NCBI GenBank assembly: GCA_021650895.1
Contig: CP091278.1
Span: 3,067,659 to 3,131,658, forward strand
Source: Candidatus Jettenia sp.
GTDB taxonomy: Bacteria; Planctomycetota; Brocadiia; Brocadiales; Brocadiaceae
Reading direction: 5' to 3'
DNA: 64,000 bases
A program made the translations under genes and the position numbers. Within the stretch, counting starts at the first letter, position 1, and each line of letters begins with the position of its first letter. Positions 13,093 through 40,960 of this stretch are shown here, one piece after another. Below the pieces are notes generated by a model, which saw only the letters and a program-made list of their open reading frames with translations, did no database searches and had not been told where the DNA came from.

Positions 13093-14976
13093 TTGAATAT
13101 TTTCTTCATTTTATTTATAGTTGTTGCAAGTTTATGTTGTAATTATTCTTTATGTAAGCAAGATTTTGCCTATGGGAATTCCTATTATGTTGATCCAAAT
13201 AAGGGCGATGATGGAAAGATAGGAAACTTATCTGCTCCCTGGAGAACGATAAAAAATAGTGTTTCGAGATTACAACCGGGCGATACCCTCTATCTCAGGG
13301 GTGGAACTTACTATGAGAGTCAAATTAAAATTAGTAACCAAGGGGCTAAATCAAAAAAAATTATCATAAAAAATTATCCCGATGAATCGCCAATTATTGA
13401 TGGAGGTTATGCAGAGTTTAGAATAGTTCCCAATTCTGATTGGGAGATTCACGATGCTAAGAAAAATATATATAGGTCGGTAAAAACTTATTCTTCTGCA
13501 GATTATGTCTATGGATATTTCGGACCCGATAATAATTGTCGCCTTATCTCTTATGAAAGTTATCATGATCTTAGCGCAGAGAATGAAGATTATACTGCTG
13601 TTGGTGATGTTTATCTCGGTCCCGGTATATTTTGGAATAGTTCTGATGAGAAGATCTATATCAGGCTGAAGCCCAGTAAGCAACAAATGGCTATGGGGTA
13701 TACTACTCCATTGAACAACGACCCATGTCTTACAAAGATGTTTATTTTTTCTCATCATGAAATAATCATTTTAAGAGAGAAGTCTTCTTACATCGATATT
13801 GAAGGTATTAATCTTAGGTATCAAAACAATGCTTTTGAATTTAAACCAGGATCGAATAATATTCTTATAAAGAACTCAAATGTGTTAGGAGGTAGGACAC
13901 ATATTTATGTAAATGACAATGTCCACGATCTTGTCTTTGATGGTATTAAGATTGAAGATTCTGTTCCTCCCTGGATTGCCTGGACTGATGTGAAAAGAGG
14001 TAAAAAACCAGCACACCGTTTTCAAGGGACTGCAATATCGATAGAAGGTTCAGCGCATAATATAGAGATCAAGAATTGTGTGTTTAATAACACCTGGGAT
14101 GGAATTAATGCTACTAGCTCAGCATTTGGTCTCCATATCCATGATAATGTATTCAAGGGTACCCGGGATGATGTGGTTCAGTTAGGGTCTGGCTGCTCTG
14201 ATGTTGAGATCAATCACAATAAAATGATCCTCGTTTCAAAAGGGGTTTCCAGGCACGGATCAGGTTCACCGCTCAGACCAGGGACAAAGTATATCCATCA
14301 TAATATTATTGATTGCAGTAAGCCCATGCTCGGTGGAAGACGTGATCCGGATGATTTACTTCTAGAAAAATATCAAAAATATCATGGTCCGAATGGTGAT
14401 GGGATGGTATGGGCGCGTCCATTTGGTAGCCACAGGAGTGGTGGATATGGCAGGGGTGATCCATGGAAGATATACCATAACACCATTATCTTTGGGAAGG
14501 AATTGAATGATAGGGGAGCAGGACACGAATATGTTCTCGAAACTTTTTATCCTGGGTATCCCCAGGAGGTCTACAACAATATCATCATTCAGACGATGGA
14601 TCATTGGCTGGCGAGGGATTGCAGGGTAGCAGATGGTTCACAGATATGTGATGGGAATCTCTACTATCGCTTAGGAGCGAATTCTAAGAGCTATTTTTTT
14701 AGATCATGGGCGGAGAGATTGGGTGGCAGCTCAAAAGATTTCAAAAGCCTTTCTGCGTTTAAATCATCACCACTCTTTGATGCTTCCAAGAAATATTATG
14801 CACCTGGCTGGGAGAAGAATGGAGCGGAAGCGAACCCTCAATTAGATGAAGATTACTATCCTGCCCCTGACGGTCCTGCGGCATATGGTGCTATACCGTT
14901 ACCATCTAGTTGGCCTGGTCAGGACGGTAAAAAATATCGTGGAGCATTGCCTCCTAAGAACTTGAATATAAAATGA
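13093..14976 (+). CDS. Secreted right-handed beta-helix protein, paralog A
   Basis: 627 residues. It starts at TTG 13093 with a hydrophobic export segment (FFILFIVVASLCCNYSLC). The mature part opens with YYVDPNKGDDG...PGDTLYLRGGTYYES, the DUF1565/pectin-lyase-like entry of parallel beta-helix proteins, followed by repeated N-x-I/V turns (INHNKMI, IHHNIID, IYHNTII). Members are polysaccharide lyases, epimerases or binding proteins; no catalytic triad can be named here. Paralogs B (18035) and C (23011) share its architecture, and its C-terminal 270 residues are nearly identical to B. Unlike B and C it has no GEMM riboswitch upstream and seems to be read from the polysaccharide operon. Confidence 0.82.
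   Translation: MNIFFILFIVVASLCCNYSLCKQDFAYGNSYYVDPNKGDDGKIGNLSAPWRTIKNSVSRLQPGDTLYLRGGTYYESQIKISNQGAKSKKIIIKNYPDESPIIDGGYAEFRIVPNSDWEIHDAKKNIYRSVKTYSSADYVYGYFGPDNNCRLISYESYHDLSAENEDYTAVGDVYLGPGIFWNSSDEKIYIRLKPSKQQMAMGYTTPLNNDPCLTKMFIFSHHEIIILREKSSYIDIEGINLRYQNNAFEFKPGSNNILIKNSNVLGGRTHIYVNDNVHDLVFDGIKIEDSVPPWIAWTDVKRGKKPAHRFQGTAISIEGSAHNIEIKNCVFNNTWDGINATSSAFGLHIHDNVFKGTRDDVVQLGSGCSDVEINHNKMILVSKGVSRHGSGSPLRPGTKYIHHNIIDCSKPMLGGRRDPDDLLLEKYQKYHGPNGDGMVWARPFGSHRSGGYGRGDPWKIYHNTIIFGKELNDRGAGHEYVLETFYPGYPQEVYNNIIIQTMDHWLARDCRVADGSQICDGNLYYRLGANSKSYFFRSWAERLGGSSKDFKSLSAFKSSPLFDASKKYYAPGWEKNGAEANPQLDEDYYPAPDGPAAYGAIPLPSSWPGQDGKKYRGALPPKNLNIK
14160..14960 (+). repeat. Long inverted repeat, left arm (3' part of paralog A)
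   Basis: About 800 bp of this arm is highly similar by eye to the opposite strand of 18050-18850 (3' part of paralog B), including long identical runs around the VVQLGSGCSDVE and PLFDASKKYYAPGW codons. The arms flank the GT4 gene and the sugar phosphotransferase gene. Confidence 0.85.
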
Positions 14977-18034: not shown

Positions 18035-19936
18035 TTATGGTGCTTGTGGAGGTAGTGCTCCTCGATATCCTCCACCATCGATGCCAGGCCAACTAGATGG
18101 TAACGGTATAGCACCATATGCCGCAGGACCGTCAGGGGCAGGATAGTAATCTTCATCTAATTGAGGGTTCGCTTCCGTTCCATTCTTCTCCCAGCCAGGT
18201 GCATAATATTTCTTGGAAGCATCAAAGAGTGGTGATGATTTAAACGCAGAAAGGCTTTTGAAATAGTATGAACTGCTTCCTAATTTCTCCTCCCATGATC
18301 TAAAAAAATAGTTCTTAGAATTCGCTCCTAAGCGATAGTAGAGATTCCCATCACATATCTGTGAACCATCTGCTACCCTACAATCCCTCGCCAGCCAATG
18401 ATCCATCGTCTGAACGATGATATTGTTGTAGACCTCCTGGGGATACCCAGGATAAAAAGTTTCGAGAATATATTCGTGTCCTGCTCCCTTACCATTCAAT
18501 TCCTTCCCAAAGATAATGGTGTTATGGTATATCTTCCATGGATCACCTCCGCCAAACTTAATACCCTGGTGCCGTCCAAACGGACGCGCCCACACCATCC
18601 CATCACCATTCGGACCATGATATTTTTCTGAAAGTAAATCATCCGGATCACGCCTTCCACCGAGCATGGGCTTACTGCAATCAATAATATTATGATGGAT
18701 ATACTTTGTCCCTGGTCTGAGCGGTGAACCTGAACCTTCCCGGGAAACCCCTTTTGAGACAAAAAGCAACTTGTTATGATTGAACTCAACATCAGAGCAG
18801 CCAGACCCTAACTGAACCACATCATCTCTAGTGCCCTTAAATACATTATTGTGGATATGGAGATTGTATGCTGTTTCGTTTGCATCAATTCCATCCCAGG
18901 TATTTTCGAATATACAATTCTTGATCTCTATATCATGCGCTGAATCTTCTATCGATATTGCAGTCCCTTGAAGACTATGCCCAGGTTTGGTGCCACATTT
19001 GACATCACTCCAAGCAATCCAGGGAGGAACGTTATCAGAGACACGAATACCATCAAGAACAATATCACGAACATCGTCACGGATCATAATAGGTGTCCTA
19101 CCACCTGCTATTTCCATATTCTTAAGAGTAATATGATCTGACCCGGATTCAAATTCAAAGACATTATTCTGATATCTTGCGTTAATACCTTCAATGGTTA
19201 TATAAGAACTTGATGGTCCAAAAGTGATAATCTCCTGGTTTGAGAAGATATACATGGGTGTAGAACGAGGATCGGTGTTGGATGGGATATTGTATCCCAT
19301 GGCAATTTCCTGCTTACTGGGCTTTAGTCTGACATAGATCTTTTTATTAGAACCATTCCAGAATATACCGGGGCCGATATAAATACCGCCAGACCTGGTA
19401 TAATCTTCGTTACTTGCCCGAAGATCATTATAATCTTCGTAAGGAACAAGGCGATAGTTATCGTTTCCACTTCCAAAATACCCATAAATTTCCCTTGCGT
19501 TAGGGTATGTATTTACCGACCTGTATATTCCTTTTGAAGAATCGTATACCTCCCACTGAGAGTTAGGGGTCGATCGAAATTCTTTGTAGCAACCGTTAAT
19601 GGTAACCGACTCATCAGCATAATTTTTTATGGTAATCCAATTTGATTCTTCTCCATGATTGTTAATTACAATTTGACTCTCATAGTAAGTTCCACCCCTG
19701 AGATAGAGGGTATCGCCTGGTTGTAATTTTTCGATACTCTTTTCTATGGTCTTCCAGGGATTGGATAAACTTCCACTGTTTGAATCATTACCATTTGTTG
19801 CAACATAATACGTAGCTGCCAGACATCTTTCGTTTGCTGATAAAAAAAAGGTTGAGGTTAAGCTTACAAAAGATATGAGAATGGAAAGAGAAAAAACGGG
19901 GGGGTTCAGTACTTTTTGAATATGGGATAGTAACAT
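18035..19936 (-). CDS. Secreted right-handed beta-helix protein, paralog B, riboswitch-controlled
   Basis: 633 residues. ATG at 19936 is preceded by a strong ribosome site (AAGGAGGTGCTGGT). The signal peptide (VFSLSILISFVSLTSTFF...) is followed by ATYYVATNGNDSNSGS and PGDTLYLRGGTYYES, the DUF1565-like entry, and a long beta-helix with VDIEIKNC and IHHNIID turns. The N-terminal ~150 residues and the whole upstream region match paralog C almost exactly; the C-terminal ~270 residues match paralog A; the middle is its own. This mosaic points to recombination among the three. A GEMM-I riboswitch (20000-20092) lies in the leader, so expression should follow c-di-GMP. Likely role: binding, cutting or modifying polysaccharide outside the cell; no enzyme activity can be assigned. 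Confidence 0.85.
   Translation of the reverse strand: MLLSHIQKVLNPPVFSLSILISFVSLTSTFFLSANERCLAATYYVATNGNDSNSGSLSNPWKTIEKSIEKLQPGDTLYLRGGTYYESQIVINNHGEESNWITIKNYADESVTINGCYKEFRSTPNSQWEVYDSSKGIYRSVNTYPNAREIYGYFGSGNDNYRLVPYEDYNDLRASNEDYTRSGGIYIGPGIFWNGSNKKIYVRLKPSKQEIAMGYNIPSNTDPRSTPMYIFSNQEIITFGPSSSYITIEGINARYQNNVFEFESGSDHITLKNMEIAGGRTPIMIRDDVRDIVLDGIRVSDNVPPWIAWSDVKCGTKPGHSLQGTAISIEDSAHDIEIKNCIFENTWDGIDANETAYNLHIHNNVFKGTRDDVVQLGSGCSDVEFNHNKLLFVSKGVSREGSGSPLRPGTKYIHHNIIDCSKPMLGGRRDPDDLLSEKYHGPNGDGMVWARPFGRHQGIKFGGGDPWKIYHNTIIFGKELNGKGAGHEYILETFYPGYPQEVYNNIIVQTMDHWLARDCRVADGSQICDGNLYYRLGANSKNYFFRSWEEKLGSSSYYFKSLSAFKSSPLFDASKKYYAPGWEKNGTEANPQLDEDYYPAPDGPAAYGAIPLPSSWPGIDGGGYRGALPPQAP
18050..18850 (-). 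repeat. Long inverted repeat, right arm (3' part of paralog B)
   Basis: The reverse complement of this stretch is highly similar to 14160-14960 within paralog A. The similarity falls off near codons upstream of GTRDDVVQLGSG and ends close to the stop codons, so it is confined to coding sequence. Confidence 0.85.
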
Positions 19937-19937
19937 A

Positions 19938-19992
19938 CCAGCACCTCCTTATAAAATTTGGCCGTAACAAACACAAGACCTGCAAAGTGCTG
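19938..19992 (-). promoter_or_regulatory. Putative riboswitch expression platform (anti-SD/SD pairing), paralog B
   Basis: On the minus strand, CAGCACTTT (19984-19992) just after the aptamer can pair over 9 contiguous positions (two G-U) with GAGGTGCTG in the ribosome site of paralog B. CAGCACTT and the ribosome site are also present after the aptamers of copy 2 (24960-24968) and copy 3 (25305-25313), which supports sequestration of the ribosome site as the switching step. Confidence 0.5.
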
Positions 19993-19999
19993 TTGTATT

Positions 20000-20092
20000 T
20001 GCCCGGCAACCCTGCTACCATGTCCTTATGAAGGATTTAGGCCAGTGGCTTTGCGTCCCATCCTTTCGAATGGTTTGCCCTTATCAGGTTTC
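20000..20092 (-). ncRNA. GEMM-I cyclic-di-GMP riboswitch (copy 1, upstream of paralog B)
   Basis: Read on the minus strand, the stretch carries the c-di-GMP-I aptamer hallmarks in order: AGGGCAAACC, a CCATTC-GAAA-GGATGG stem with a GAAA tetraloop, GGGACGCAAAGCC, the receptor element CTGGCCTAAATCC, and GGTAGCAGGGTTGCCGGGC at the 3' side. The aptamer ends about 64 bases before the ATG of paralog B. No U-tract follows, so control is probably at translation. Confidence 0.93.
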
Positions 20093-20261
20093 TAATAAAC
20101 AACTTTACTACGGAAGAATGCTTAAAATTATTTTATACGAGAGATTTGTTGCCTCCTTTCTTAAAAAGTTCAAAGCAGAATGAATAGTTGTTAAACCGTA
20201 GAATAATTAGATAAATTAAGTTACAATTTACTCTTATTGTTTTAGTTCTTCATTACAGGAA

Positions 20262-20304
20262 GAAATAGACTAGCTTCGCTTTAAAAGGAGAGCTAGTCTA
20301 TTTC
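20262..20304. terminator. Strong hairpin, likely terminator of gene D
   Basis: A perfect 14-bp stem GAAATAGACTAGCT / AGCTAGTCTATTTC with a 15-base loop, just past the minus-strand end of the beta-helix gene at 20327. No long T-run follows, so termination strength is uncertain. Confidence 0.6.
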
Positions 20305-20326
20305 ATGTGTTTTTAACAAGAGTTTG

Positions 20327-22831
20327 TTATAGGGAAAAATCCTGCATTTTACTGTATTCAATATGCAGTTTAGGGGCTTTATTAAGATCTCTGTGATTTG
20401 TGGCACCTTCGAAGGATTCTGCTATTCTTCTTCCTGTACCTGAAATAATAAATACCATTGCATTATTTGCTGCCCAGCCAGGTTGATTTATTATTTCTTG
20501 AACGATGGAAGTAATGTCCGGTGTCTGCTGGTCTTGCCCTGATTCTCCCTTGATATCCCAGGCAGGAGGATTCCAGCTAACTTTGGCAACTGTTCTTGAT
20601 CGAGAAGAGACATTACCTTTTCTACCAACAAAAGGTGTTGCGTTATTTGAAGCTTCACCTTTTATCATAAGGGTAGTTTCATTGAAGCTTATTTCATCAG
20701 TTGTGAACTGTATATAGGCTTTGGTAATTATTGCTCCGGATGGGATGTCTAAGGAATTGAATCTCAATCCAATATTCTGTATTATTCCACTATCGACAAC
20801 CAATTCTATATCTGAACTAGACATTCTCATACCACCACTATTTTTCTCCTCCACATCATCGTCCCCTTGCGCTATGGAAACGTCTAATGCGTATATAGTA
20901 GTAACGATTGATCTAGGGTCATAAGAGGGATCGGTAGTAATGATTACTTTATCCCATGTCACACCATCTTCGGCTGCCCCGATAACAAAGGGGTAGTTTC
21001 CCGGCGGGGTAGAAAGGCTCTTTGGCAATTTAACCCAGGAATAAGTTCCATTGGAAGAAGTAGGTACCGTTATTTTAGAATCACCATTAAAGGAGACAGA
21101 CAGGGAATTGCCGCTATCATCACTTCCCTTCGCACGAATCCAAACATAATATGGATAATTCTCCTCGGTAACTATGAGGGAGTATTCTGCATATGCCCAA
21201 GCTCCCATTCCCTCCGGTGCAGTAATCGCTGTACCACCCGATGCATCTGCATCACTTACCTTCTTTGCCGTTCCGACAAGCCATGCATACTTTTCTGCTT
21301 CAAATGGCACCGTGTTCGGCGCTGTAACCGTAACCGTATCCCCATCACCATCTTCTACATACCGGACCGTTATCGTATCACTTGCCTCTAACTCACCATC
21401 ATTCGCTGTTAGCTTTAATTTATACGTACCTTGCTTGGAGAAGGTGGCTGTGGCATCTGTATCCCTCGGATCAGAAAAGGTCACTGTGCCTGGACCACTT
21501 ACCATACTCCACAGAGTCTCTAAGGTACCATCCGGCAATCCATCATCGCTCACCTGTCCACCAAGAGTAAGATGATCAGTAGGATCGTAAATTACCTCAA
21601 GACTTCCTGCATTTACTGTTGGCGCCTGGTTCTTCGGAGGCTCGGTTGAACTTCCCGATTCCTTCGCTCCCAGATCGGGCGATGATCCCTTATAGGAGGA
21701 TGATGGTATATTTAAAACAACATCAGAATGCCATACAAAATACGCCGTCCCTTTGTCTATGCAGGGACTTCCATCCAAAAGATGGTAATTGGAATCATAT
21801 TTAGGCACAACATTCAATAGGATTCCATTGTCCGTAACGCAGTCTTTTATATGTTCCCCATTGTTATAAAAAATACTATACCCTACAACGGAATTTGTCT
21901 TAGCCCTTTTTATTCCCACATTCTTATTATTTACTATAATATTGTTCAGGGCAATCATATTGTCTGCACCCGTAACACCTACCACATTGCCTGCAATAGT
22001 ATTATGGTAAAGATACGCCCTTTCCTTCATGTATGACCCGCCGTAATTCTCCCGGGTATTCCCATCAGGCATGCACCCTACACCAGCCATAGCATTGTTT
22101 ACAATGACATTATTGAAGATAGAAAACACCCTATTTGATACATCAGAATAATCAATTAATTGAATGCCATCCTCACCATTTCCCGATAAGGTATTGTTAT
22201 TAATGGTGTATTTTATCGTCGGACCGGAATAATCGTACAACTTGTACAAACGGATTTCTATGCCATCATCCTCGTTATTTAGGATCATATTGTGTTCGAT
22301 GGTGTAGTAACCCTTCCTTCCGTCAACATCAATCCCATCGTCACTCGTGTTTTCAATCGTGTTATAGCCAACATAGCCGTAGCCGTCCGATTCAAAACTA
22401 ATGGCGTCACCTCCATTATCGCTAAAGATATTATTTTTTATGGTGACTAAATCGTTTACAATGATTGGCTTAGAGGCATTGGTAAATTTCAGACCGCTAA
22501 TCTCTACATTTACTCCCTTGCCATTGATAGTCTCAAATACCGTAGCTCTGCCTCCATCGATAACGGTTTGATTTATATACTTGGTATCTTTTGTTGTATA
22601 ATACTGGGAAGTAATGGTAAGCTTTTTATTGATATCGATACCATTTTCACGGTAGGTTCCGGGAGCAATAATGATAACATCACCGGACGATGCATTACTT
22701 ACCGCAGCCTTAATCGTGGAGTAATCCTCTGGCACATGGATTGTACCGGCATATGAAGCACCTGACAAGCAACACAGGACTACTAATTTACAGAAAAGAA
22801 ATTTCCATAATTTACCCTTCAACCTTCTCAT
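20327..22831 (-). CDS. Secreted multi-domain beta-helix protein (gene D) with PKD-like, CBM-like and DNRLRE-like domains
   Basis: 834 residues; ATG at 22831 has AAGGAGAAAG directly upstream. After a signal peptide (FCKLVVLCCLSGASYA) come: a pectin-lyase-like parallel beta-helix (~30-395; IHVPEDYSTIKAAV, APGTYRENG, N-x-I turns); a PKD/Ig-like domain (~405-490; VNAGSLEVIYDPTDHLTLGG, GTYKLKLTANDGE); a CBM6/35-like domain (~505-630; PFEAEKYAWLVGTA, YYVWIRAKGSDDSG); and a C-terminal DNRLRE/CBM96-like domain (~640-830; ITKAYIQFTTDE, APKLHIEYSK). This is a wall- or polysaccharide-binding architecture, possibly with lyase activity. It lies between paralogs B and C, in the same direction, without a riboswitch. 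Confidence 0.82.
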   Translation of the reverse strand: MRRLKGKLWKFLFCKLVVLCCLSGASYAGTIHVPEDYSTIKAAVSNASSGDVIIIAPGTYRENGIDINKKLTITSQYYTTKDTKYINQTVIDGGRATVFETINGKGVNVEISGLKFTNASKPIIVNDLVTIKNNIFSDNGGDAISFESDGYGYVGYNTIENTSDDGIDVDGRKGYYTIEHNMILNNEDDGIEIRLYKLYDYSGPTIKYTINNNTLSGNGEDGIQLIDYSDVSNRVFSIFNNVIVNNAMAGVGCMPDGNTRENYGGSYMKERAYLYHNTIAGNVVGVTGADNMIALNNIIVNNKNVGIKRAKTNSVVGYSIFYNNGEHIKDCVTDNGILLNVVPKYDSNYHLLDGSPCIDKGTAYFVWHSDVVLNIPSSSYKGSSPDLGAKESGSSTEPPKNQAPTVNAGSLEVIYDPTDHLTLGGQVSDDGLPDGTLETLWSMVSGPGTVTFSDPRDTDATATFSKQGTYKLKLTANDGELEASDTITVRYVEDGDGDTVTVTAPNTVPFEAEKYAWLVGTAKKVSDADASGGTAITAPEGMGAWAYAEYSLIVTEENYPYYVWIRAKGSDDSGNSLSVSFNGDSKITVPTSSNGTYSWVKLPKSLSTPPGNYPFVIGAAEDGVTWDKVIITTDPSYDPRSIVTTIYALDVSIAQGDDDVEEKNSGGMRMSSSDIELVVDSGIIQNIGLRFNSLDIPSGAIITKAYIQFTTDEISFNETTLMIKGEASNNATPFVGRKGNVSSRSRTVAKVSWNPPAWDIKGESGQDQQTPDITSIVQEIINQPGWAANNAMVFIISGTGRRIAESFEGATNHRDLNKAPKLHIEYSKMQDFSL

Positions 22832-23010
22832 TTCTTTCTCCTTAAATTTTTAGCGTATTAATTACTGGAATTTGTTCAGATTATTACACTAAATTTTTTT
22901 ATAATTAAAATGATAGTAGAAGTTAACAGCGAAAAAATTGTAAGACCTCTTGTATACCTAAAGCATCTAAAGTTTATGAAGCTTAAGCATTCTTAGGTAA
23001 ATTCGGTTAG

Positions 23011-24912
23011 TTATGGTTGTTGTGGAGGTAGCGCTCCTCGGTATTTTTTGCCATCCCTGCCAGGCCAACCAGATGGTAACGGTATAGCACCAGTTGCTGC
23101 CGGACCGTTGGGGTCAGGATAATAATTCTTGTCTAGTTGAGGGTCAGCTTCGATACCGGAGTTCTCCAAACCGGGAGGGTAGTATTTCTTAGAGGATTTA
23201 AAGAATCTTGAAGACTTAAACTCGGAAAGACTCATAAAATGTTTTTTACTACTTTTTTTTCTTTCTCTGTGTGATTTAAAAAAATAAGTTTTAGGATTGT
23301 TTATAGAGCGATAGTAGATATTCCCATCATATATTTGAGAACCATCTGCCACCCTACACTCTCTTGCCAGCCAATGGTCCATTGTCTGAATGATGATATT
23401 GTTATAGACCTCCTGTGGTTGATCTCGATAAAAATATTTAAGAATATATTCATGTCCTGTTCCTTTATTGTTTAGCTCCTTCCCAAATACCAGGGTATTA
23501 TGGTATATCTTCCATGGATCACCTTTACCAAATCTATTAGCTTCATGCTTTGCAAGCGGACGAGCCCATACCATCCCATCACCATTCGGGCCACGATATT
23601 TTTTTGAGAGTAATCTATCAGGGTCACGTCTCCCACCCAACATTGGTTTGCTGCAATCAATAATGTTGTGATGGATATATTTTGTCCCTGGTTTAGGTGG
23701 AGAACCTGATCCATGCCTGGAAATCCCTTTTGAAACGAAGATCATTTTATTGTGATTGATCTCAATGTCAGAGCAGCCAGACCCTAATTGAACTCCATCA
23801 TCCCGGGTACCTTTAAATATGTTATTGTGGATATGAAGATTATACGATGTATCAACTGCGCCAATTCCATCCCAGGTGTCTTCAAATGTGCAATTCTTGA
23901 TTTCTATATCGTATGCTGAATCCTGAATACTTATTGCAGGTCCCTGAAAAGCATGTCCAGGCTCCATACCACATTTGACATCACTCCAGGCAATCCAGGG
24001 AGGAACGTTACCGGAGATATGAATACCATCGAATACAATACCATGAACACCGTTACGGATCAAAACAGGTGTCCTACCACCTATTATATCGATGTTCTTA
24101 AGAAAAATGTGGTTTGCTCCTGATTTAAACTCAAGTGCATTATTCTGATATCTTAGATTAATACTCTCGATATGTATATATGAGGATTTCTCCTGAAAGG
24201 TGATAACTTCATGGTTTGGAAAGATGTGCATCAATGTAGAGCAAGGATTTGTATCTAAGGGGATAGTATATCCCATAATAATTTCTTGCTCACTGTGCTT
24301 TAGCCTTATATATATCCTTTCATCGGAACTATCCCAGAATATACCCGGGCCAAGATAAATATTACCAATATCAGTATAGTTTTCATTATCTGCGCTAAGG
24401 TCGCTGTATCTTTCATAAGAAACAAGCCGATAATTACCATTTTTACTTCCAAAATACCCATGGATACCCTCTGCGTTAGGGTATGTATTTACTGATCTGT
24501 ATATTCCTTTTGAAGAATCGTATACCTCCCACTGAGAGTTAGGAGTTGATCGAAATTCTTTGTAGCAACCGTTAATGGTAACCGACTCATCAGCATAATT
24601 TTTTATGGTAATCCAATTTGATTCTTCTCCATGATTGTTAATTACAATTTGACTCTCATAGTAAGTTCCACTCCTGAGATAGAGGGTGTCGCCTGGTTGT
24701 AATTTTTCGATACTCTTTTCTATGGTCTTCCAGGGATTAAATAAACTTCCACTGTTTGAATCATTACCATTTGTTGCAACATAATACGTAGCTGCCAGAC
24801 ATCTTTCGTTTGCTGATAAAAAAAAGGTTGAGGTTAAGCTTACAAAAGATACGAGAATGGAAAGAGAAAAAACGGGGGGGTTCAGTACTTTTTGAATATG
24901 GGATAGTAACAT
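23011..24912 (-). CDS. Secreted right-handed beta-helix protein, paralog C, riboswitch-controlled
   Basis: 633 residues, with the same start, ribosome site and signal peptide as paralog B. The first ~147 residues differ from B at only a few positions. Beyond that point the middle part resembles paralog A more (YLGPGIFW, SSDERIYIRLK, RYQNNALEFK), and the C-terminus is divergent from both (EFKSSRFFKSSKKYYPPG). The beta-helix pattern of repeated N-x-I/V turns runs through residues ~220-480. A GEMM-I riboswitch (24976-25068) sits in the leader. Expected location: outer surface or secreted. Function is probably polysaccharide binding or modification; an enzyme class cannot be assigned. Confidence 0.85.
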   Translation of the reverse strand: MLLSHIQKVLNPPVFSLSILVSFVSLTSTFFLSANERCLAATYYVATNGNDSNSGSLFNPWKTIEKSIEKLQPGDTLYLRSGTYYESQIVINNHGEESNWITIKNYADESVTINGCYKEFRSTPNSQWEVYDSSKGIYRSVNTYPNAEGIHGYFGSKNGNYRLVSYERYSDLSADNENYTDIGNIYLGPGIFWDSSDERIYIRLKHSEQEIIMGYTIPLDTNPCSTLMHIFPNHEVITFQEKSSYIHIESINLRYQNNALEFKSGANHIFLKNIDIIGGRTPVLIRNGVHGIVFDGIHISGNVPPWIAWSDVKCGMEPGHAFQGPAISIQDSAYDIEIKNCTFEDTWDGIGAVDTSYNLHIHNNIFKGTRDDGVQLGSGCSDIEINHNKMIFVSKGISRHGSGSPPKPGTKYIHHNIIDCSKPMLGGRRDPDRLLSKKYRGPNGDGMVWARPLAKHEANRFGKGDPWKIYHNTLVFGKELNNKGTGHEYILKYFYRDQPQEVYNNIIIQTMDHWLARECRVADGSQIYDGNIYYRSINNPKTYFFKSHRERKKSSKKHFMSLSEFKSSRFFKSSKKYYPPGLENSGIEADPQLDKNYYPDPNGPAATGAIPLPSGWPGRDGKKYRGALPPQQP

Positions 24913-25160
24913 ACCAGCACCTCCTTATAAAATTTGGCCGTAACAAACACAAGACCTGCAAAGTGCTGTTGTATTTGCCCGGCAACCCTGCTACCATGTC
25001 CTTATGAAGGATTTAGGCCAGTGGCTTTGCGTCCCATCCTTTCGAATGGTTTGCCCTTATCAGGTTTCTACTAAACAACTTACTACGGAAGAATGCTTAA
25101 AATTACTTTATATGAAGGATTGGTTGCCTCCTTTCTTAAAAAGTTCAAAGCAGAATGAAC
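24473..25160 (-). repeat. Direct repeat copy 2 (leader, riboswitch and N-terminus of paralog C)
   Basis: Partner of 19497-20185, same orientation, nearly identical by eye. Its far end overlaps the 3' end of the decayed 48-codon copy, which shows that the leader of B was itself derived from that tandem unit. Confidence 0.88.
24976..25068 (-). ncRNA. GEMM-I cyclic-di-GMP riboswitch (copy 2, upstream of paralog C)
   Basis: Identical by eye to copy 1 over the aptamer core: AGGGCAAACC, GAAA-capped stem, GGGACGCAAAGCC, GGCCTAAATCC and GGTAGCAGGGTTGCC. The anti-SD candidate (24960-24968) and ribosome site (24914-24926) follow in the same spacing. Confidence 0.93.
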
Positions 25161-25254
25161 GGTGTTTAAAGTTGTAAAAAATTATAGAGAGGATGAAAAT
25201 GGAAAGAGAAAATGGATGCTTTTTAAATGATTTTGAGATATGGAATAGTAACAT
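25108..25254 (-). pseudogene. Decayed fourth beta-helix copy: 48-codon signal-peptide remnant
   Basis: ATG at 25254 follows the same ribosome site (GGAGGTGCTGGT) as paralogs B and C. The peptide begins MLLFHISKSFKKHPFSLSIF, clearly homologous to the B/C signal peptide (MLLSHIQKVLNPPVFSLSIL), then runs into unrelated residues and stops after 48 codons at 25108, where the leader of paralog C begins. The beta-helix body is missing. It is best explained as the stub left by unequal recombination between tandem copies, though a short secreted peptide cannot be excluded. Confidence 0.75.
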
Positions 25255-25317
25255 ACCAGCACCTCCATATAGAATTGGACCGCAACAAACACAGCGGCCT
25301 ATGTGAAGTGCTGTATT

Positions 25318-25411
25318 CGCCCGGCAACCCTGCTACCATATCCTTTATGAAGGATTTAGGCCAGTGGCTTTGCGTCCCATCCTTTCGAATGGTTTGCCTT
25401 TATCAGGTTTC
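25318..25411 (-). ncRNA. GEMM-I riboswitch copy 3 (orphan, variant core)
   Basis: The same aptamer elements as copies 1 and 2, except the first G of the conserved GGG is A (AAAGGCAAACC instead of AAGGGCAAACC) and the P3 loop has small changes (TTCATAAAGGATATGG). The downstream hairpin keeps its pairing with different bases (AATACAGC / GCTGTGTT), which supports a functional past. It now controls only the 48-codon remnant, or acts as the leader of a longer transcript into paralog C. Confidence 0.9.
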
Positions 25412-39988: not shown

Positions 39989-40960
39989 CTATGGGTAAAG
40001 AACCACATCAGAGCGAGATTGAATGGACGAAAGATTTATTCCAAGCATGTCTGCTGTTTGAGTATTTAAGGTTAATGTTAACTTTTCTGGTTGTTGAACA
40101 CCCAATGAAGTGGTTTTCGGGCTGTTTAATAATGTTTGAGCTATCTCAGATGCTTGAATACCTGTATGAGTATAATCTGTCGAGACAGACATCAATGCCC
40201 CTGCCTTTACAATTGCACTTGATGTGCAGAATGTAGGTAAGTTATATTTCAGTGTCCCTTTGAGGATAGTATCTAATGAATTTTTGGTAATTACGGTGCC
40301 ATCAGGGATTATCCATAAAATATCTATTTTACGGATAATAGTGTTTAATACTGATGTTGCTTTATTTTCTGAGTCAACTTCTTTTGTAATGAGATTGAAT
40401 TCAAACTTTTTTGCGATATGGGTTGCTTCCGAGATAATTTTCCCTGTTTTCGTAGGATCATAAATAACTCCTATATTCTTATGGGTGCCGAGGAACTCTT
40501 TGAGAACAGCAAATTGATCTTCTACCGATGCTTCAGAGGATATACCAGTAACATTGACTCCCTGGAGATTAAAGCGTTCGTGATTAATAACCATACAAAA
40601 TATAATAGGTATGTCCGTAAATTGATCTTTTACGATCGTTGCGGCAAGGATTCCTACTGCTAAGATAAGATCGGGTTTGAATTTCTTACCCTTGATATTT
40701 TGGATAATTCTTTTACCCTCCTCTGCATCTCCGTTCAGGTTATACATTGCCCGTATGGAGATGTTTTTCCCTTTACATCCTTCTTGAAAACCCTTAACAG
40801 CTTCATCGTAAGCTACAATTTGTTGACTTTGAATAATGATGACAGTGTTTTCTTTTGCAATCGCTGGGGAAGTATGGAATGAGATTTGGAAAAGAAAGGT
40901 GATGATATACCAAAATACTATGAGTATTCGAATACTAAGGTATTTGTTATATTTTTGCAT
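39989..40960 (-). CDS. ABC transporter substrate-binding protein (ABC_sub_bind/TrpX-like family)
   Basis: 323 residues with a signal peptide (IRILIVFWYIITFLFQISFHTSPAIA, shown in part by a basic n-region and hydrophobic core). Two alpha/beta lobes have family patterns PDLILAVGILAATIVKDQ, IPIIFCMVINHERF, NIGVIYDPTKTGK and LPTFCTSSAIVKAGALMSVS. Related proteins bind amino acids or other small solutes, and some act in sensory systems without a permease. No permease or ATPase gene lies beside it. Its neighbour is a degenerate TonB-dependent receptor on the same strand, perhaps once part of one uptake unit. Confidence 0.78.
   Translation of the reverse strand: MQKYNKYLSIRILIVFWYIITFLFQISFHTSPAIAKENTVIIIQSQQIVAYDEAVKGFQEGCKGKNISIRAMYNLNGDAEEGKRIIQNIKGKKFKPDLILAVGILAATIVKDQFTDIPIIFCMVINHERFNLQGVNVTGISSEASVEDQFAVLKEFLGTHKNIGVIYDPTKTGKIISEATHIAKKFEFNLITKEVDSENKATSVLNTIIRKIDILWIIPDGTVITKNSLDTILKGTLKYNLPTFCTSSAIVKAGALMSVSTDYTHTGIQASEIAQTLLNSPKTTSLGVQQPEKLTLTLNTQTADMLGINLSSIQSRSDVVLYP

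Follow-up and report, generated by a model that had tools for sequence, protein, structure and literature searches.

Three c-di-GMP-I riboswitches with a putative translational OFF platform precede beta-helix protein genes and a gene stub in the anammox bacterium Candidatus Jettenia

Riboswitches of the c-di-GMP-I (GEMM-I) class owe their ligand selectivity to position 20, where A20 in place of G20 is the mark of the cGAMP-specific GEMM-Ib type (PMC6456294), and their occurrence in tandem is well known (PMC9481103 and PMC12452182). The array described here lies in a window of 64,000 nucleotides, i.e., the whole stretch of DNA that we analyzed, from the single-contig 3.82-Mb genome of Candidatus Jettenia sp., and represents a known riboswitch class in a new, distinctive setting. 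What is new is that each aptamer is predicted to lead into a translational platform, in which a hairpin blocking the Shine-Dalgarno sequence (SD) opposes an anti-sequestor, and that this platform recurs in other families of the same order. A literature search for riboswitches or c-di-GMP together with anammox returned no title or abstract on riboswitches in anammox bacteria, with subscription journals mostly outside its coverage.

A cmscan search with Rfam over the whole window gave exactly three matches above the gathering score, all of them to RF01051 on the minus strand and each covering the model at full length (positions 1-87 of 87) with scores far beyond the gathering cutoff of 35 bits. 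Aptamer 1 (25320..25408; 88.6 bits, E 3.3e-16) is located 5' of a gene stub, aptamer 2 (24978..25065) 5' of gene C, and aptamer 3 (20002..20089) 5' of gene B; the latter two are identical in sequence (86.9 bits and E 8.3e-16 each), and aptamer 1 is slightly different. The first-pass annotation, which had claimed three GEMM-I aptamers (a near-identical pair and one variant) and had expected strong minus-strand matches of the RF01051 covariance model in these places, is thus borne out, with aptamer coordinates correct to 2-4 nt. The GAAA tetraloop and the tetraloop-receptor helix (UUCGAAAGG and CCUAA...UAUGG/CAUGG) are visible in all three window aptamers, and the tetraloop is missing only from the copy B aptamer of Candidatus Jettenia ecosi. 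The ligand-contact bases G20, A47, and C92 (Vc2 numbering) are kept in all 15 leaders that we aligned to Vc2, three from the window and 12 others. A GEMM-Ib specificity for 3',3'-cGAMP is ruled out by G rather than A at position 20 in all leaders, and c-di-GMP is the expected ligand because of this G20, whereas A20 would mark the GEMM-Ib type. Assignment of the window aptamers to c-di-GMP-I-GGC (RF03167) is ruled out as well, since RF01051 is the clan winner for all three. With 11 GGDEF matches in the genome, it is plausible that the host makes c-di-GMP. Judged by their sequence, the three elements are genuine GEMM-I aptamers of the c-di-GMP type that would presumably bind this ligand.

The ORFs behind the aptamers are arranged as the first-pass annotation had described them, all on the minus strand. 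Gene C (23011..24912) encodes a secreted-looking, right-handed beta-helix protein of 633 aa, and gene B (18035..19936) encodes a 633-aa beta-helix paralog that is 77% identical to it, both with PF13229 and DUF1565 matches; the stub is found at 25108..25254. Genes B and C are under purifying selection, with computed dN/dS values of 0.18-0.20 and 0.16-0.23, respectively, and between-species values range from 0.11 to 0.23 across genes B and C, the 834-aa gene discussed below, beta-helix paralog A, and an EpsL-like gene. Similarity of the B and C proteins to chondroitinase B, pectate lyase, and rhamnogalacturonan lyase is weak and limited to the N-terminal part (PDB matches included), with PF14592 covering residues 62-115 only and below cutoff. 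Assignment to PL6/chondroitinase B was rejected for want of a full catalytic-domain match, the predicted structure of the 633-aa protein is of low confidence (mean pLDDT 38.1, 6 sequences), and any enzymatic or matrix-remodeling role would be conjectural. In another genus (G016, L051:4311-9349), two c-di-GMP-I aptamers are found 5' of a 1002-aa chondroitinase-B-like protein (PF14592, 46.3 bits), with a gap of about 1.15 kb between the second aptamer and the ORF.

The genes located downstream of the window aptamers are B and C alone and perhaps also that of an 834-aa beta-helix and PKD protein behind gene C (20327..22831, minus strand; dN/dS 0.15-0.17), which is without a riboswitch directly upstream and possibly under putative control by read-through from gene C. 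A scan for promoters and terminators gave matches at chance level. A perfect 13-bp inverted repeat (AAATAGACTAGCT/AGCTAGTCTATTT) in the interval from the 834-aa gene to leader B (20250-20320) was seen by eye, is absent from the scan output, and is possibly a terminator separating the units. The proposal that the polysaccharide region as a whole is under second-messenger control is not supported because the polysaccharide-assembly genes (flippase, polymerase, glycosyltransferases, and sugar transferase; about 4.2-17.9 kb) and paralog A (13093-14976) are encoded on the plus strand, where the whole-window Rfam search found no riboswitch on them.

Each expression platform spans 74 nt with the SD and AUG at its end and is matched by our platform-only model R1 on the minus strand: platform 1 (25252..25325; R1 match G000:C1:3092910-3092983) ends at the stub AUG, platform 2 (24910..24983) lies 5' of gene C, and platform 3 (19934..20007), identical to platform 2, lies 5' of gene B, with the pairing found in platforms 1 and 2. 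Two competing folds can be drawn per platform, an SD-blocking hairpin and an anti-sequestor in which the GCC strand of the aptamer itself is engaged. In platform 2, the sequestor pairs CAGCACUU (24961-24968) with AGGUGCUG (24915-24922) over the SD, and the outer part of the anti-sequestor pairs the aptamer's GCCG (from 24983) with CGGC (24937-24940). Both folds can form in the array leaders of three Jettenia species, at the 95908 and 2040295 loci, and in one order-level relative; copies B and C of Candidatus Jettenia ecosi have a mismatch within the sequestor. Model R1 recovers the platform in Jettenia and in order-level relatives directly 3' of GEMM-I aptamers, with matches in other families of the order in genomes G037 (twice), G048, and G055, which are outside its training set, and in G027, which is inside it. 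An RF01051 aptamer is found directly upstream of the R1 match in four of four scanned loci of relatives (L076, L078, L079, and L085) and likewise in G027, and two weak R1 matches (G008 and G017; E about 0.03) at which an RF01051 aptamer is absent were treated as noise.

In 16 distinct sequences, 95.3% of cells are paired in the sequestor helix, and three of its pairs have changed on both sides, although the sequences behind these pair-change counts are few and related and alignment A5 had been fitted to the sequestor. The covariation score of the sequestor was reached by none of 500 shuffles, and the smaller alignment A4 gives weaker support than A5 (pairs were counted on these two alignments, leaving out MAFFT alignment A2 with its misaligned B/C platform insertion). 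The case for the platform rests on comparison because in single-sequence tests the helix length over the SD was equaled in 5-27% of shuffles, which is not significant for most leaders. When the aptamer fold is held in ensemble folding, the sequestor probability goes up in most unsaturated leaders and down in none; in the bound state it reaches only about 0.23 in leaders B and C and still less in G2. For the 2040295 leaders and for G27, sequestration is predicted in both states, and several values change when 45 nt of coding sequence are added.

The recurrence of R1, the covariation of the sequestor, and the rise of its probability under aptamer-held folding favor a translational OFF switch, and our best inference, of moderate confidence, is that c-di-GMP would lower translation of the two 633-aa beta-helix proteins. 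Without ligand, the 3' strand of the aptamer (GCCG, which holds the ligand-contact base C92) would pair with the downstream CGGC to form an extended anti-sequestor hairpin in which CAGCAC is engaged as well, leaving the SD open for production of the beta-helix protein. With c-di-GMP bound, GCCG would be held in the aptamer and the anti-sequestor weakened, which would allow the two sequestor strands to pair over the SD and translation to fall. Taken together, we give a probability of roughly 60% to the reading that these are translational OFF riboswitches whose leaders were duplicated with genes B and C and are subject to gene conversion, and that the stub derives from a deleted third copy. The aptamers, their ligand-contact bases, and the conserved alternative pairings are computed parts of this reading, and we infer the ligand binding, the OFF direction, and the translational mechanism.

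The evolutionary part of this reading starts from computed array conservation and a computed homogenized block. The array sits in a syntenic block of about 93-97% identity among Jettenia genomes, and its layout, with about 343 nt from aptamer 1 to aptamer 2 and about 5 kb from there to aptamer 3, is kept from the window genome (G000 or G0) to Candidatus Jettenia ecosi (G001 or G1) and a third Jettenia (G002 or G2); a search of protein C against genome contigs returned three loci, all in Candidatus Jettenia ecosi J2. Copies B and C within one genome are 96-100% (G0 and G2) or 85-99% (G1) identical from the aptamer start to about +600 and 63-86% identical past this point (about 75% for the remainder as a whole), and orthologs are 84-100% identical between species from the aptamer onward. 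In the window genome, the homogenized block, 96-100% identical between the copies, reaches from the aptamer to about codon 150 (24465..25065 for copy C and 19490..20089 for copy B, both minus strand), past which the two copies share 64-84% identity. Site patterns across G0 to G2 switch sharply at about +600, from 17 concerted versus 0 paralog-type sites before it to 2 versus 288 past it, as fits the recombining beta-helix family suggested in the first-pass annotation. These patterns are consistent with gene conversion as the process that homogenized the riboswitch and about 150 codons between B and C in each genome, and recombination routes other than conversion may also be the source of the block. 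Genes B and C would then have been duplicated together with their leaders, and gene conversion would keep the leader and N-terminus alike. We consider it conceivable but rather doubtful that in Jettenia the riboswitch recombines as one cassette with its platform and the N-terminal coding segment, kept uniform across paralogs by conversion while the remainder of each protein diversifies; such a cassette would put one OFF module over different proteins, given a related leader at a PAS-histidine kinase.

The stub ORF has 48 codons, of which the first 26 encode signal- or anchor-like residues that are nearly the same in three Jettenia species and resemble the signal segment of the beta-helix proteins; the ORF then enters the upstream region of leader 2, and its C-terminus differs between species and, in G2, lies in a different frame. 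Because the N-terminus is kept and the C-terminus is not, the most likely origin of the stub is a third copy of which the remainder was deleted, an event that would predate the split of the three species and would have left aptamers 1 and 2 in tandem. A tentative alternative, also compatible with the OFF mechanism and differing from the reading above on the stub, is that both aptamers form a putative functional tandem with a short leader peptide for steeper (digital) control of gene C. The succession of aptamer 1, the start of a 26-residue peptide, and aptamer 2 at about 343-nt spacing in three species would fit this idea, as would the 347 doublets and 12 triplets of c-di-GMP-I riboswitches counted elsewhere (PMC9481103), but the variable, frame-shifted C-terminus of the stub speaks against it.

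With regard to direction, we regard it as unlikely that the window elements are ON switches, in which the ligand would free the SD by cotranscriptional folding or by stacking that favors an inner anti-sequestor with no need of the GCC strand. This inner anti-sequestor can indeed form next to an intact aptamer in leaders B and C (bound-state MFE), c-di-GMP-I riboswitches are predicted to be ON in examples given in PMC9481103, closely homologous aptamers can work in either direction (PMC9262584), and the GGC-type riboswitches of the window genome resemble antitermination ON switches by inspection. However, the competitor of the ligand-bound aptamer in the platforms that we examined is the anti-sequestor and not the sequestor, and aptamer-constrained folding does not lower the sequestor probability of any unsaturated leader. 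Still less probable is that real but partly decaying aptamers sit in an array of mostly recombination debris, with B/C regulation weak or lost in some species, which would explain the non-conserved stub C-terminus, a riboswitch before a broken beta-helix copy at the 2040295 locus, and the lost tetraloop and mismatched sequestor of Candidatus Jettenia ecosi copy B but is at odds with more than 85 bits for aptamers 1 and 2 in all three species, dN/dS values of 0.16-0.23 for genes B and C, and a platform kept at order level.

The window genome contains 24 c-di-GMP-I matches, of which 23 exceed the cutoff and many are associated with surface, pilus, and secretion genes. Of its eight PF13229 matches, only two fall in genes that immediately follow a riboswitch. 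The first-pass annotation had called the repeated use of such riboswitches on beta-helix proteins distinctive, which holds for the setting but is weaker than claimed in view of these numbers. Among 11 loci outside the window that were scanned with all families, RF01051 is best at three (L002, L005, and L006) and RF03167 at eight, and in several of these non-window leaders a terminator-like stem repeats the 3' aptamer strand in complement, as expected for ON switches (by inspection). Their downstream genes include pilM, a prepilin peptidase, pseudopilins, a glycosyltransferase, peptidases, and a TonB-receptor plug protein. Relatives of the same family carry 56 (G020), 44 (G022), and 35 (G013) c-di-GMP-I matches per genome, more than the 17 GEMM-I riboswitches reported for G. 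sulfurreducens (PMC6456294).

Further loci were recorded as separate observations. The leader type of the array with a similar MLLSHV start is joined to a PAS-histidine kinase at the 95908 locus (L025:5427-6845), and a similar riboswitch at G000:C1:2040295-2040382 (L027), which precedes a broken beta-helix copy, has compensatory sequestor changes relative to the G001 copy. In L028 (G000:C1:36000-46000), a row of small Cys-rich peptide ORFs and a radical-SAM protein (PF04055) follow a GGC-type c-di-GMP-I riboswitch (40188-40308), an arrangement suggestive of a RiPP cluster controlled by c-di-GMP. Finally, a response regulator at L026:4352-6061 that has a partial GGDEF and a methyltransferase domain lies behind a canonical c-di-GMP-I riboswitch, possibly a feedback on c-di-GMP signaling.

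Wastewater plants grow anammox bacteria in the form of granules, and to our knowledge the control of their aggregation is poorly known. The riboswitch matches number about two dozen in a single Jettenia genome and as many as 56 in a genome of the same family; they amount to a list of c-di-GMP-regulated genes that can be tested directly. The conserved dual-fold platform predicts OFF control at the level of translation. The terminator-type GGC riboswitches in this genome, as read by eye, would act in the opposite direction, so that a single signal would turn up some surface systems and turn down others.

Compared with known systems, the window aptamers share with the RF01051 class the full-length model match, the ligand-contact bases, and their location in the 5' leader of envelope or secreted protein genes; they differ in their anammox planctomycete host, in the SD-sequestor/anti-sequestor platform that is predicted to be OFF, and in that the leader lies within a recombining block. 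They belong to the same clan as RF03167, but the loci of that type in this genome have longer P3 arms and terminator-like stems. Like known tandems (PMC9481103 and PMC12452182), aptamers 1 and 2 follow each other, about 343 nt apart, with a platform of their own each, but here a start codon and the 48-codon stub lie between them, and therefore the deletion of a gene copy is the probable origin of this tandem. The C. difficile riboswitch Cd1, an OFF switch, resembles the window elements in that ligand lowers expression (as predicted here) and that the anti-structure can form only once the binding-competent fold is lost; according to PMC9262584, Cd1 acts on transcription through a terminator and controls flagella, whereas the window riboswitches are predicted to act on translation and to control beta-helix proteins.
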